Notes under the pieces: model-generated | What the model saw: the letters and a program-made list of their open reading frames with translations, nothing else | What the model was told of the DNA's origin: nothing | Database searches by the model: none | Program-made: the position numbers and the translations under genes | Shown here: piece by piece, positions 9,017 through 39,780 of the stretch | Position numbering within the stretch: the stretch's first letter is position 1 | Layout: the number at the start of each line of letters is the position of its first letter | NCBI RefSeq assembly: GCF_015350905.1 | Contig: NZ_JADKRZ010000003.1 | Coordinates: 1-64,000, forward strand | DNA length: 64,000 nt | DNA from: Curtobacterium sp. VKM Ac-2865 | GTDB taxonomy: Bacteria; Actinomycetota; Actinomycetes; Actinomycetales; Microbacteriaceae | Direction of reading: 5' to 3'

Positions 9017-9060
9017 CGGACGGGAGGCTCGTGGCGGCGCCGCCACGAGCCTCCCGTCCG
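9017..9060. terminator. 44-nt perfect palindrome, bidirectional terminator (repeat family copy 1)
   Basis: 22-nt arms beginning CGGACGGGAGGCTCGTGG meet with no unpaired spacer around GGCGCC. It lies between convergent genes, 26 nt after the SPFH stop and 4 nt from the TetR stop. The same element recurs at 10587 and 39737, always just after stop codons, so it is best read as a genome-wide terminator repeat. Confidence 0.85.
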
Positions 9061-9064
9061 CCGC

Positions 9065-9646
9065 TCACCGGACGACGCGGTCGAAGACCCCGACGAGCTG
9101 GTCGGCGAGCGCGGTCGCGTCTGCCCCGCCACCGAGTGACTGCAGCGCGCCGTCGCGGACCAGGGCGACCAGCCCGTGCGCGAACGCCCAGCTGACGAGC
9201 GCCATGACGGGCGGTACGCCGTCGGGCTGCCCCTCGACGGCGATGGTGGTGGTCGCCGACGCGAGGACCCCGATGCTCTCGGCCTGCGCCGCCTGCAGGG
9301 CCGGGTCGTCGGGGTGGAGTTCGTCCGGTCGGAACATCAGCTCGAACAGCGCCGGGTGCTCGAGTCCGAAGTGCACGTAGGCGCGCCCGAGGTCACCGAG
9401 CCCGGGGCCGTCACCCGCGCCGACCGCCCGCAGTCGGTCGGTCAGCTCGGCGAACCCCGCGGTCGCGATCGCCGTCAGCAACCCCGCCCGGTCTCCGAAG
9501 AAGTACTTCGGCGCGGCATGGGAGACCTCCGCTCGCCGGGCGATGCCCCGCAGGCTGACGCCCGCCAGACCCCGCTCGGTGAGTTCTGCCCGTGCGGCGG
9601 CGACGAGCCGTTCGCGTGCGTCTCCTGGAGTGCTGTGGTCGGTCAT
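9065..9646 (-). CDS. TetR/AcrR family repressor, divergent from the Ser-X-X repeat gene
   Basis: A 193-residue regulator. The DNA-binding domain covers roughly residues 10-55 (LTERGLAGVSLRGIARRAEV then SHAAPKYFFGDRAGLL), and the C-terminal domain has the WHG-type pattern LEHPALFELMF and VSWAFAHGLVAL (TetR_C_33/WHG class). The ATG is at 9646. Two inverted repeats lie between it and the divergent gene at 9741, so it probably represses that gene and itself. Confidence 0.9.
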   Translation of the reverse strand: MTDHSTPGDARERLVAAARAELTERGLAGVSLRGIARRAEVSHAAPKYFFGDRAGLLTAIATAGFAELTDRLRAVGAGDGPGLGDLGRAYVHFGLEHPALFELMFRPDELHPDDPALQAAQAESIGVLASATTTIAVEGQPDGVPPVMALVSWAFAHGLVALVRDGALQSLGGGADATALADQLVGVFDRVVR

Positions 9647-9666
9647 GGAACGATCTTGGCGAACGG

Positions 9667-9720
9667 GGTTGACACTGTCAAGCGGAGGGTGCATGCTGAT
9701 GTCACTTGACAGCGTCAACC
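9667..9720. promoter_or_regulatory. Two TetR-type operators with embedded TTGACA boxes
   Basis: The first site, TTGACACTGTCAA (9669-9681), is a perfect 6-1-6 palindrome. The second, TTGACAGCGTCAA (9706-9718), is a 5-3-5 palindrome. The flanks are also mirrored (GG before the first, CC after the second). TTGACA is also a consensus -35. The second site ends 22 nt before the ATG at 9741, so a bound repressor would block transcription of the repeat protein. Confidence 0.8.
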
Positions 9721-9740
9721 ACAACCGGAGGAACCCGCCC

Positions 9741-10076
9741 ATGTCGAACACCGCCACCACCACCTCGATCGCCTCCATCGCCTCCATCGCCTCCCGCGGC
9801 AGCATCCGCTCGATCGCCTCGGCCGCGTCCCGTGAGTCGATCGCCTCGGCCGCCAGTGCCGGCTCCGCCGCCAGCGCCGCGTCGTTCGGGTCCGCGTTCA
9901 GCGCCGCGTCGTTCGCGTCGGCGTTCTCCTTCGGGTCGGCGTTCTCGTTCGGCTCGCTGTTCTCGATCGGCTCCGTCGGGTCCGTGCTCTCCATCGGCTC
10001 GGTCGGGCAGTTCGGTGCCGTGTTCGGCGTCCCGGTCCTGCCGACCCTGCTCCGCGCCGCCGGCCTGGGCGCCTGA
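9741..10076 (+). CDS. Small protein with 27 consecutive Ser-X-X triplets
   Basis: A 111-residue protein with no family I recognise. From residue 9 to about 89 serine occupies every third position without exception, 27 times. The two other positions change along the chain: Ile-Ala in the first units, Ala-Ala in the middle, then Phe/Gly, Leu/Phe and Val/Gly; the last 22 residues (QFGAVFGVPVLPTLLRAAG) are hydrophobic and break the Ser rule. Ser codons vary (TCG, TCC, AGC, AGT), so the period is kept at protein level rather than by DNA slippage. Start ATG 9741 has GGAGGA 8 nt upstream. The regular period suggests a solenoid, a polyproline-II-like or helical stack, or a membrane-active peptide; this is inference. 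It is under the divergent TetR and shares its transcript with the SnoaL-like gene. Confidence 0.85.
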   Translation: MSNTATTTSIASIASIASRGSIRSIASAASRESIASAASAGSAASAASFGSAFSAASFASAFSFGSAFSFGSLFSIGSVGSVLSIGSVGQFGAVFGVPVLPTLLRAAGLGA

Positions 10077-10125
10077 ACCCCGCCCACCAGCCACCCCACA
10101 CACGACCCCGACAGGACACGCCGCC

Positions 10126-10578
10126 ATGTACCACGCACTCGTGAAGCGCCTCGCCGCGAAGAACTTCGAGCTCATCAACACCAAGGGCCACGCCGAGCTC
10201 CTGGCGTCGTGCACCCCGGACATCAGTCACCGGTTCGGCGGCGACCACGCCCTCGGCGGCCAGCGCCACACCCGCGACGCCCTCGCGACGTGGCTCGACC
10301 GCCTCGGTCGACTCGTCCCCTCCCTGCGCCTGACCATCACCGACATGTGGGTCAAGGGATGGCCGTGGGACACCACCGTGATCATCCGCTGGACCGGCAC
10401 CGCGACCTTCCCCGACGGCTCCCCGTACCACCAGCACGGCGTCCACGTCGTGGCACTCCGCTGGGGCAAGGTGACGGCCATCGACGCCAACGAGGACTCC
10501 CAGGCCGTCACCGTCCTCATGGCGGCCGTCGCCGCCTCCGGGGTCGACGAGGCTGCCGCAGCCCCAGTGCTCAGCTGA
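10126..10578 (+). CDS. SnoaL-like/NTF2-fold protein
   Basis: A 150-residue single-domain protein with the NTF2-like cone pattern: N-terminal helices, then HTRDALATWLDRLGRL and strands around LRLTITDMWVKGWPWDTTVIIRW and YHQHGVHVVALRWGKV. Such folds act as small hydrolases, isomerases or binding modules. The start ATG has only a weak AGGA 10 nt upstream. It lies 49 nt after the Ser-X-X gene with no terminator between, so the two are probably one TetR-regulated unit. The reaction is unknown. Confidence 0.8.
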   Translation: MYHALVKRLAAKNFELINTKGHAELLASCTPDISHRFGGDHALGGQRHTRDALATWLDRLGRLVPSLRLTITDMWVKGWPWDTTVIIRWTGTATFPDGSPYHQHGVHVVALRWGKVTAIDANEDSQAVTVLMAAVAASGVDEAAAAPVLS

Positions 10579-10586
10579 GCCGATGG

Positions 10587-10630
10587 CGGACGGGAGGCTC
10601 GTGGCGGCGCCGCCACGAGCCTCCCGTCCG
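10587..10630. terminator. 44-nt perfect palindrome (repeat family copy 2)
   Basis: Identical to the element at 9017 and placed 8 nt after the SnoaL-like stop codon. It separates this unit from the DoxX-like gene downstream. Confidence 0.85.
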
Positions 10631-10719: not shown

Positions 10720-11148
10720 ATGTCGTCCCGTCTCCGCCCCACCCGCTCGACGAAGCCCAGGACCGTGGTGCGCATCCTGCTGGGTGCGGCCATCACCTGG
10801 GCCGGGATCAGCCACCTCACCGTGGCCCGGCAGGAGTTCCGCGCACAGGTCCCCGAGTTCGTGCCGCTCGACCCCGACGTCACCGTCCTGGCGTCGGGCA
10901 TCGCGGAGATCTCCATCGGTGCCGCACTGGTGCTCCTGGTCCGCCGACAGGCGACCGTCGGCTGGGTCGCCGCCGTGTTCTTCGCCGCGGTGTTCCCGGG
11001 GAACATCGCGCAGTGGCTCCACCACCGGGACGGCTTCGGCCTGGACACCGACACCAAGCGGTTCGTCCGGCTGCTGTTCCAGCCCGTCCTCATCGCGGTC
11101 GCGCTCTGGGCGACCAACGCCCTGCGGACCGGTCGCCGGGGGCGCTGA
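10720..11148 (+). CDS. DoxX-like small membrane protein
   Basis: A 142-residue protein with about four membrane segments (roughly 16-34, 60-80, 85-105, 122-140). The pattern GAAITWAGISHLT, an intervening VPEFVP, and FPGNIAQWLHHRDGFG resembles DoxX-like proteins of the DoxX/MauE superfamily. The ATG at 10720 is preferred; a GTG 48 nt earlier lies inside the palindrome. The role of this family is poorly defined and often linked to redox or thiol stress. It stands alone between two terminator-like regions. Confidence 0.75.
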   Translation: MSSRLRPTRSTKPRTVVRILLGAAITWAGISHLTVARQEFRAQVPEFVPLDPDVTVLASGIAEISIGAALVLLVRRQATVGWVAAVFFAAVFPGNIAQWLHHRDGFGLDTDTKRFVRLLFQPVLIAVALWATNALRTGRRGR

Positions 11149-33462: not shown

Positions 33463-34536
33463 GTGACGATCACGAACAACGGGGCCATCGGTCACCGCGT
33501 CGCCCTCTCGCTGCTCGGGGTCCGGGTCGCCGCCCCGGTGCACCGTGAGGGCGGCGCCGGACCCTCGGACGACGGCCACGTCCTGTTCGAGGGCCTGCAG
33601 GCGGCACTGCCCGTGAACGCGACGAGCCCGTACACCGTCGCCGACGGCAAGCTCATGCTCGAGGGCGCCGACCTCGGCCTGTCCGTCGAACCGGTGGCGC
33701 GTCCGCGCTTCTACGACATGTCGACCGCCGACGGCACCCCGTACGAGCAGATCGCCAGGCTGCACGGTGCCGAGGTCCTCGCGACGACCGTCGTGCAGAC
33801 CTGCATGCGGTACGACGAGGCGGAGCGCTGCCGCTTCTGCTCGATCGAGGAGTCCCTGCGTGCGGGCAGCACGATCGCGGTCAAGACACCGGCGATGCTG
33901 GCCGAGGTCGCCGAGGCAGCGGTCCGGCTCGACGGCGTCACGCAGATGGTGATGACGACCGGCACGTCGAAGGGGCGCGACCGCGGCGCCACACACCTGG
34001 CCCGCTGTGTCCGCGCGATCAAGGAGCGCGTCCCCGAGCTCGGCATCCAGGTGCAGTGCGAGCCACCGGCCGACCTGTCGACGATCACCGACCTGTACCA
34101 GGCGGGAGCGCGGAGCATCGGCATCCACGTCGAGTCGATGGACGACGACGTCCGCCGCCGCTGGACGCCCGGCAAGGCCCGGGTCCCGCTCGACGAGTAC
34201 CGCGCCGCCTGGCGCGAGGCGGTCCGCGTCTTCGGCTGGAACCAGGTCTCGACCTACCTGATCGTCGGCATGGGCGAGGACCCGGACGAGCTCGTCGCGT
34301 CCGCCGCGGAGCTCATCGACATGGGCGTCTACCCGTTCATCGTGCCGTTCCGTCCGATCCGCGGGACGCTCGCGGTCGACGTGGACGGCGCGACCACCCC
34401 GCCGCGCGACGTCATGCACGACGTCACCCGCCGCGTCTCCGACCTCCTCCTCGCCGCCGGGATGCGCGGCGCCGACCAGGCCGCCGGCTGCGCCGCGTGC
34501 GGAGCCTGCTCGGTCCTCAGCACGACGGGAGCCTGA
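33463..34536 (+). CDS. MSMEG_0568 family radical SAM protein
   Basis: A 357-residue radical SAM protein of the Nit1C cluster. The iron-sulfur cysteines are Cys114, Cys123 and Cys126, giving C-x8-C-x2-C instead of the usual C-x3-C-x2-C. A second cluster site, C-x2-C-x2-C (343, 346, 349), is at the C-terminus. The barrel segments (MVMTTGTSKGRDRG, GIHVESMDDDVRRRW, TYLIVGMGEDPDEL) resemble biotin-synthase-like enzymes. GTG start follows the previous stop by 3 nt. The product is unknown. Confidence 0.9.
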   Translation: MTITNNGAIGHRVALSLLGVRVAAPVHREGGAGPSDDGHVLFEGLQAALPVNATSPYTVADGKLMLEGADLGLSVEPVARPRFYDMSTADGTPYEQIARLHGAEVLATTVVQTCMRYDEAERCRFCSIEESLRAGSTIAVKTPAMLAEVAEAAVRLDGVTQMVMTTGTSKGRDRGATHLARCVRAIKERVPELGIQVQCEPPADLSTITDLYQAGARSIGIHVESMDDDVRRRWTPGKARVPLDEYRAAWREAVRVFGWNQVSTYLIVGMGEDPDELVASAAELIDMGVYPFIVPFRPIRGTLAVDVDGATTPPRDVMHDVTRRVSDLLLAAGMRGADQAAGCAACGACSVLSTTGA

Positions 34537-39736: not shown

Positions 39737-39780
39737 CGGACGGGAGGCTCGTGGCGGCGCCACCACGAGCCTCCCGTCCG
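39737..39780. terminator. 44-nt palindrome (repeat family copy 3, one mismatch)
   Basis: The same element as at 9017 and 10587 with one base change (CCACCA for CCGCCA) near the centre. It lies 8 nt past the stop of the SMP-30 gene on the minus strand and should end the operon that begins at 44792. Confidence 0.85.

Follow-up and report, generated by a model that had tools for sequence, protein, structure and literature searches.

A large family of serine-triplet repeat proteins with a branch probably controlled by a TetR regulator in Curtobacterium

Introduction

Several classes of proteins with very short sequence periods have been described. Collembolan (snow flea) antifreeze proteins consist of Gly-X-X triplets and adopt the polyproline-II conformation. 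In the Hxs systems, the radical-SAM maturases HxsB and HxsC are encoded next to the peptide gene. The short-period beta-solenoids and beta-rolls include the left-handed hexapeptide helices and the RTX nonapeptides, and one coil of the left-handed beta-helix comprises 18 residues. Here we describe a gene of Curtobacterium sp. VKM Ac-2865 that encodes an unbroken series of Ser-x-x triplets, together with its relatives. Like HxsA4 and other His-Xaa-Ser repeat proteins, the product is a triplet repeat with Ser at every third position, but it has no His at a fixed position. With the snow flea antifreeze proteins, it shares the strict three-residue period and a single fixed small residue; however, the family described here fixes Ser instead of Gly, almost lacks Pro, consists of aliphatic triplets with a nine-residue superperiod, is bacterial and, in the present case, is probably TetR-controlled. 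The Gly at every third position that is typical of collagen and other Gly-X-X proteins is not found (Gly in 14 of 4198 register positions); the PF01391 Collagen model matches 3 of the 58 members of the family profile A4 (best E 9.3e-4). The nonad SIL-SIG-SAG resembles a strand followed by a Gly turn, as in RTX proteins, and two nonads, that is, 18 residues, equal one coil of the left-handed beta-helix. Unlike these proteins, the family lacks the Asp residues for calcium, neither consensus includes Ser at every third position, and there are no Pfam beta-solenoid or RTX matches for the Curtobacterium protein or the 58 members of A4. We rate the class as new, but cautiously, since it might yet be assigned to the known solenoids once a structure is solved.

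The gene is located in the window, by which we mean the whole stretch of 64,000 nucleotides that was analysed. The preliminary description of this DNA concerned the Ser repeat and passed over the palindromes, the TetR gene and the SnoaL neighbour, all of which are present beside the Ser-repeat gene. The features of the locus are as follows.

9065..9646 (-): TetR-family regulator, divergent, with TetR_N and TetR_C_33 domains (Pfam; conserved beside Ser-repeat genes)
9669..9681 (no strand): palindrome 1, probable operator, TTGACACTGTCAA (palindrome search, genome site count)
9706..9718 (no strand): palindrome 2, probable operator, TTGACAGCGTCAA, starting 37 bp past the start of palindrome 1
9727..9731 (+): GGAGG, likely ribosome-binding site, 9 bases 5' of the ATG (read directly)
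9741..10076 (+): Ser-x-x triplet-repeat gene, 111 aa (translation, orthologues, frame comparison)
9765..10007 (+): 27 uninterrupted Ser-x-x triplets, residues 9-89 (translation)
10008..10073 (+): C-terminal motif after the repeat, QFGAVFGVPVLPTLLRAAGLGA (alignment A5)
10126..10578 (+): SnoaL_2 (NTF2-like) protein, 150 aa, probable second gene of the unit (Pfam E 2.4e-11; neighbour in relatives)
10591..10626 (+): perfect GC-rich hairpin 3' of the SnoaL gene (36-bp sequence repeated at 9021-9056)
10720..11148 (+): small protein beyond the hairpin with sub-threshold MauE similarity (25.0 bits, cut-off 27)

The serine-triplet gene is under selection at the protein level

The translated window protein (111 aa), MSNTATTTSIASIASIASRGSIRSIASAASRESIASAASAGSAASAASFGSAFSAASFASAFSFGSAFSFGSLFSIGSVGSVLSIGSVGQFGAVFGVPVLPTLLRAAGLGA, contains Ser at residue 2 and then at residues 9, 12 and so on up to 87, that is, at 27 consecutive register positions without exception, exactly as first described. 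Because the second-longest period-3 run of any one residue in the 64-kb window spans 10 positions (Arg; best runs in stop-to-stop frames of more than 50 aa), chance is excluded as the origin of the 27-triplet run. The 28 Ser residues are encoded by TCG (14), TCC (10), AGC (3) and AGT (1), in agreement with the earlier count of at least four codons. In the C-terminal motif, FG, VPVL and LRA are invariant in 8 close relatives (alignment A5).

The ORF at 9741-10076 is a real protein-coding gene under selection at the protein level. A search of 66 genomes of the genus, the window's own among them, identified close orthologues in two genomes, G059 and G033, and distant versions in two others, G049 and G038 (E ~1e-13), with no match better than 1.1e-5 in the remaining 61. 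The comparison of synonymous with non-synonymous variation that had been suggested as a check is clear-cut: the genes of G059 and G033 differ at 4/5/33 nucleotides in codon positions 1/2/3, and 31 codon changes are synonymous versus 6 non-synonymous, which indicates selection on the protein. Of the 25 Ser residues shared by the two, 13 are encoded by different codons, in one case through a TCN/AGY switch. Across genera, protein identity drops to 55-72%, with most Ser positions kept; the N-terminal leader varies freely among the relatives, and the single gap in the later part of the repeat spans three residues. Neither frameshifts nor a loss of the Ser period were found in close relatives. In G315, G049 and G038, Ala replaces Ser at some register positions, so that the longest runs there are only 11, 10 and 10 triplets.

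The period had been attributed to selection as opposed to DNA slippage. The codon changes between G059 and G033 bear out the first part of this claim, but slippage has left its mark as well. Tandem Repeats Finder (TRF) detects imperfect arrays with periods of 9 to 27 bp across the gene, including one of period 9 at 9752-9794 (82% matches) at the N-terminus, and the Ser run comprises 27 triplets in the window copy versus 25 in the closest orthologue, that of G059. Probably, slippage adds and removes triplets while selection maintains the register.

The family and its distribution

The window protein almost certainly belongs to a large family of Ser-triplet proteins and is itself selected; it is not the one-off that it first appeared to be. 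A single-sequence search yielded 6 relatives and a profile search 1517 (E <= 1e-3), with about 7,985 candidates scored in both; among the best 120 of the 1517, which are the ones listed, the only name is 'hypothetical protein', and most are unnamed. A scan of a genome collection with one degenerate motif gave at least 592 stretches, of which 479 were confirmed by tblastn and 80 loci were kept. These come from Acidimicrobiales/Acidimicrobiia and other Actinomycetota, Chloroflexi, Thermomicrobiales, Ktedonosporobacter, one Acidobacteria bin, Cyanobacteria (Microcystis, Nodosilinea, Leptolyngbya and others), and Streptomyces, Kitasatospora, Rhodococcus, Nocardia, Kineosporia and others; most contain SILSIGSAG-type runs, as expected from the motif used in the scan. 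The Ser-repeat genes span 43% to 74% GC and employ two unrelated Ser codon families: AGT accounts for 18 of 22 Ser codons in the Microcystis gene (43% GC), and TCG and TCC predominate in GC-rich genomes. A profile search across the taxonomic family of the window found matches in 100 of 299 genomes, from which no prevalence is derived because many of the matches are of low complexity (plain (GSV)n runs among the 30 loci inspected). Since low-complexity triplets match easily, remote members may be convergent.

That no described family has this pattern, as stated in the preliminary description, agrees with our searches. There was no match of the window protein in Pfam (E<=1), PHROGs (E<=1) or among PDB sequences (E<=10), and the best NCBIfam match, HxsA4 (NF038313; 25.6 bits, E 1.7e-5, residues 47-90), stays below its cut-off of 55 bits. 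Phrase and motif-word searches of the open-access literature, a scope that leaves most subscription papers outside, returned no Ser-triplet family among the matches listed. The family profile A4 has six PDB matches (E 7e-6 to 1e-3; four kinesin constructs, CDC27 and nup54), which we take to be linker-like or FG-type low-complexity stretches.

Several lineages have versions of their own. A compact form of ~80 aa, such as MENENSVMSVGSKNSVLSLWSTNSFMSIGSRGSAFSIGSIGSFGS..., with a hydrophobic stretch at the end, occurs at loci L042, L043, L044 and L049 (also L041 and L054), and its persistence in ~1.6 Mb genomes hints at a core role. In Nodosilinea/Leptolyngbya-like cyanobacteria (L116, L118, L123, L127, L128, L129, L134), the Ser-repeat gene is strongly conserved, with summed pairwise differences of 242/90/493 at codon positions 1/2/3, and follows a gene that we take to be RecF-like. 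Eleven loci (L113, L124, L131, L133 and others), mostly labelled Acidimicrobiales or relatives, share a gene near the Ser-repeat gene that presumably encodes ribonuclease HII (rnhB-like). We clustered 787 neighbour proteins from 101 loci and the first 20 kb of the window, and found no partner common to the wide family among the 22 largest clusters, which were rnhB-like in Acidimicrobiia, recF-like in one cyanobacterial group and otherwise mixed. These and other shared neighbours look like synteny within orders. Given that the wider family has no common neighbour among these clusters, the TetR setting described below is special to the branch of the window protein.

Rules of the repeat and structure prediction

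Repeat statistics were computed for 189 members (210 minus 21 redundant ones), which contain 12-35 triplets (median 22), 3.2% charged residues and a GRAVY of 0.97. The register residue is Ser in 4128 of 4198 cases, followed by Ala (30), Cys (23) and Gly (14), a Ser count that is inflated because Ser served both to find and to register the members. At the two following positions (+1 and +2), the rules are less circular. Beta-branched residues (I, V, T) occupy 2219 of 4009 positions at +1 versus 58 at +2, and 517 versus 58 of 1758 once the five commonest triplets are removed. Gly shows the opposite preference (28 of 4009 at +1, 1791 at +2), the bulky Leu takes up +2 in 1054 triplets, Pro is present in 12 of 4009, and His is rare in the repeat.

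The triplets are also ordered. Identity between triplets is 0.332 at lag three, versus 0.080 in shuffled sequences, and falls below the shuffles at lag one (0.022) and lag two (0.029), so successive triplets tend to cycle through three kinds in a fixed order. This nine-residue superperiod (SIL-SIG-SAG) prevails among the 189 members, an outcome favoured by the choice of the 80 genome loci with a nonad motif, and is stronger in the C-terminal half (lag-three identity 0.524) than in the N-terminal half (0.132). In the window protein, nonads are not clear, and the middle consists of hexads such as SAF-SFG. Taken together, the residue rules at +1 and +2 suggest a packed, hydrogen-bonded structure.

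Structure prediction, proposed in the preliminary description as a check, did not resolve the repeat: the AlphaFold models have a pLDDT of 47.2 for the window protein (60 aligned sequences) and 56.9 for the relative P0042 (58 aligned sequences). The fold is therefore a guess, and disorder is possible. In P0042, only a C-terminal helix (118-139) is confidently modelled (pLDDT 76 and 92 for the blocks within 121-140); AlphaFold predicts no such helix with confidence in the window protein. Of the 189 members, 65 have a hydrophobic C-terminal segment and 81% have an N-terminus with a net positive charge. Together with the modelled helix of P0042, these features suggest that part of the family is linked to the membrane. 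As for the other forms considered at the outset, an exact period of three should, on geometrical grounds, produce no amphipathic face in an alpha helix, and nothing in the data examined links the window protein to ice or polymer binding.

A divergent TetR gene and paired palindromes

A divergent intergenic region separates the TetR gene from the Ser-repeat gene, which comes first on its side and is followed by the SnoaL_2 gene. Both palindromes lie between the TetR and Ser-repeat genes, and the left arm of palindrome 1, TTGACA, could double as a -35 box. The 3.73-Mb genome contains 2 TTGACNNNGTCAA sites, both upstream of the Ser-repeat gene, and none of the reversed control. The tetR frame (9065-10138, minus strand) is open backwards over the entire Ser-repeat gene, so automatic annotation may add up to 164 residues to TetR and overlook the gene.

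Twin TTGACNNNGTCAA sites were found in 8 of 398 genomes of the taxonomic family, 6 of them with an adjoining Ser-repeat gene. All sites in the genome are located at the unit in G059 (2), G197 (4), G267 (2), G391 (2) and G033 (5), as are 2 of the 3 in G315. The other two genomes, G112 and G119, have twin sites with no Ser-repeat gene within the 3-kb stretch; G119 has a weakly similar TetR (31%). No site lies upstream of the distant Ser-repeat versions of G049 and G038; G038 has one elsewhere. An order-wide profile search of 396 genomes produced matches in 11. Two of these, G704 and G768, combine TetR, twin sites and the Ser-repeat gene, and G595, which belongs to another family, has TetR, one site, the Ser-repeat gene and SnoaL. 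No TTGACNNNGTCAA site was detected in the stretches examined of the Kineosporia-like G575 and G649, or in those of G746, G737, G646 and G611, and the match in G143 is a GSV run. Altogether, the combination of TetR, palindrome and Ser-repeat gene was found at 11 loci in 10 genomes, the window included, which represent six genera and two families; 6 of the 11 loci have a SnoaL gene nearby and 5 do not, three of the latter being 3-kb stretches only. With a divergent TetR gene and palindromes in the shared intergenic region, an arrangement conserved in relatives, the Ser-repeat gene is very probably under dedicated TetR control.

Other genes of the unit and its spread

The hairpin at 10591-10626 is probably the terminator that closes the two-gene unit. 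The 36-bp GC-rich sequence occurs three times in the window (9021-9056, 10591-10626 and, with one mismatch, 39741-39776) and apparently serves as a stock terminator; two of the copies bracket the TetR/Ser-repeat/SnoaL unit. The MauE-like protein encoded beyond, at 10720-11148, is perhaps a loosely associated neighbour.

The composition of the unit varies. In G033, the TetR and Ser-repeat genes have an MFS gene between them, a DoxX_2 gene comes after the Ser-repeat gene, and TTGACNNNGTCAA sites also precede an MFS transporter/TetR pair and a SnoaL gene. The G033 contig carries what we take to be a recombinase-like gene near the unit, and one Ser-repeat copy of G197 lies on a 13.8-kb contig with a presumably ParB-like gene. 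Because of these neighbours, and because the gene is absent from most genomes of the genus, the unit appears to be accessory and may be mobile.

Plasmid searches retrieved 94 records for TetR, each with less than 60% identity, and 8 for SnoaL. A scan of four of the stretches turned up no Ser-repeat gene, and three others were read from their annotation. Related arrangements do occur. On the Lichenicola plasmid NZ_CP053710.1, a TetR gene and a SnoaL-like gene diverge, the product of the latter being 60% identical to the SnoaL protein of the window, with one TTGACNNNGTCAA site 78 bases before the SnoaL-like end of the pair and within the annotated 5' end of the TetR gene; a scan of this stretch found no Ser-repeat gene. 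In Streptomyces lavendulae, a related TetR (41%) faces a DoxX gene, and the annotation of the stretch includes no Ser-repeat gene. The unit resembles other TetR-linked SnoaL/NTF2, DoxX and MFS genes, with the difference that the palindrome-proximal gene of the window encodes a Ser-repeat protein.

Alternative explanations

That the ORF is not a gene at all, being an open-frame artefact of GC-rich DNA or the shadow of an antisense gene (9065-10138, minus strand), is scarcely credible. A crude gene caller did choose the antisense frame in the window, and frames tend to stay open in GC-rich DNA; however, changes in the sense frame fall mostly in the third position, and the palindromes and the register are conserved on the sense side. 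Across the window and 13 relatives, the antisense frames are interrupted by stops in 10, 6 and 13 of the 14 sequences (the sense frame is open in all 14, but by construction, each gene having been read from its start to the first stop). On this codon pattern and these stops, we reject the antisense gene. Also very improbable is a ribosomal peptide precursor with the triplets as substrate of a modifying enzyme, as in the His-Xaa-Ser radical-SAM systems. This possibility is raised by HxsA4 being the best NCBIfam match, but that match is far below the cut-off, no HxsA4 match exceeded it in the 12 genomes searched, His is rare in the repeat, and no modification enzyme was apparent by eye in the 22 largest neighbour clusters. 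No radical-SAM gene adjoins the Ser-repeat gene, and the nearest of six matches in the genome is ~24 kb away; with this distance and the sub-threshold score, an HxsA-like precursor is not supported. That nearest match, at 33823-34311 (+), is a radical-SAM domain protein in a 358-aa open frame within the window.

The remaining alternatives concern the state of the chain. A polyproline-II type bundle, already named in the preliminary description, would have three residues per turn, a Ser stripe and Gly or small residues at +2 facing the core, like the Gly-X-X antifreeze proteins, and perhaps would present a regular hydroxyl face. An exact period of three over up to 35 triplets suits such a turn, as would the Gly at +2 in 1791 of 4009 triplets. 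Set against this are the scarcity of Pro (12 of 4009), the crowding of Ile and Val at +1, Leu at +2 in 1054 of 4009, a superperiod unexpected for a uniform polyproline-II strand, a GRAVY of about 1, and a window protein with no PDB sequence match and no apparent link to cold. We consider the bundle quite improbable, and a beta structure is favoured over it because Pro is scarce and beta-branched residues crowd +1. A somewhat better case, still on the unlikely side, can be made for a low-complexity, mostly disordered chain that forms condensates or aggregates, sequesters the inducer or coats membranes. The SFGSAFSFGS stretch of the window protein looks like FG repeats, charge is very low, the repeat stays unfolded in the AlphaFold models built on 60 and 58 aligned sequences, and the six PDB matches of the A4 profile appear to be linker-like or FG-type stretches. 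In contrast, the strict +1/+2 rules and the fixed order of triplets suggest defined packing rather than free composition.

A possible role in chemical stress

The explanation that we tentatively put forward, and that as a whole seems possible rather than likely, is that of a selected, TetR-controlled Ser-triplet family whose product forms a protective, membrane-proximal, self-associating, beta-rich scaffold. By analogy with other TetR regulators, TetR would bind the TTGACNNNGTCAA palindromes and repress the unit. A small, probably lipophilic or toxic compound would bind TetR and release the Ser-repeat and SnoaL genes and, in G033, would free an MFS transporter gene as well. The uncharged stretch of I/V/A/F, G/L/A and Ser might then self-associate rather than fold into a soluble enzyme; our guess is that this would involve short beta strands split by Gly-Ser turns, with nine residues per unit in most relatives. 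The protein could reside at or near the membrane, shielding or scaffolding it under chemical stress. Taken separately, beta-rich self-association near the membrane is doubtful, and a protective role slightly more so. Two features lead us to favour this combination of membrane-near self-association and protection: neighbouring genes of transporter, DoxX and SnoaL type, and a long chain that is uncharged and follows set rules.

An unlikely but far-reaching reading is that these proteins constitute a new class of tandem repeats with a stereochemical code of its own, in which Ser at position 0, beta-branched or small residues at +1, Gly or Leu (and hardly any beta-branched residue) at +2 and nine residues per unit would specify a hitherto unseen serine-laddered solenoid or fibre at bacterial membranes; in the branch of the window protein, a dedicated chemical sensor would deploy it when needed as a coat against toxic compounds. 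Being strict over 43% to 74% GC and two Ser codon families, such a code should serve a defined structure. The unit of palindromes and TetR offers an experimental handle that most orphan families lack, by which the fold, location and effect of the Ser-repeat protein become testable.
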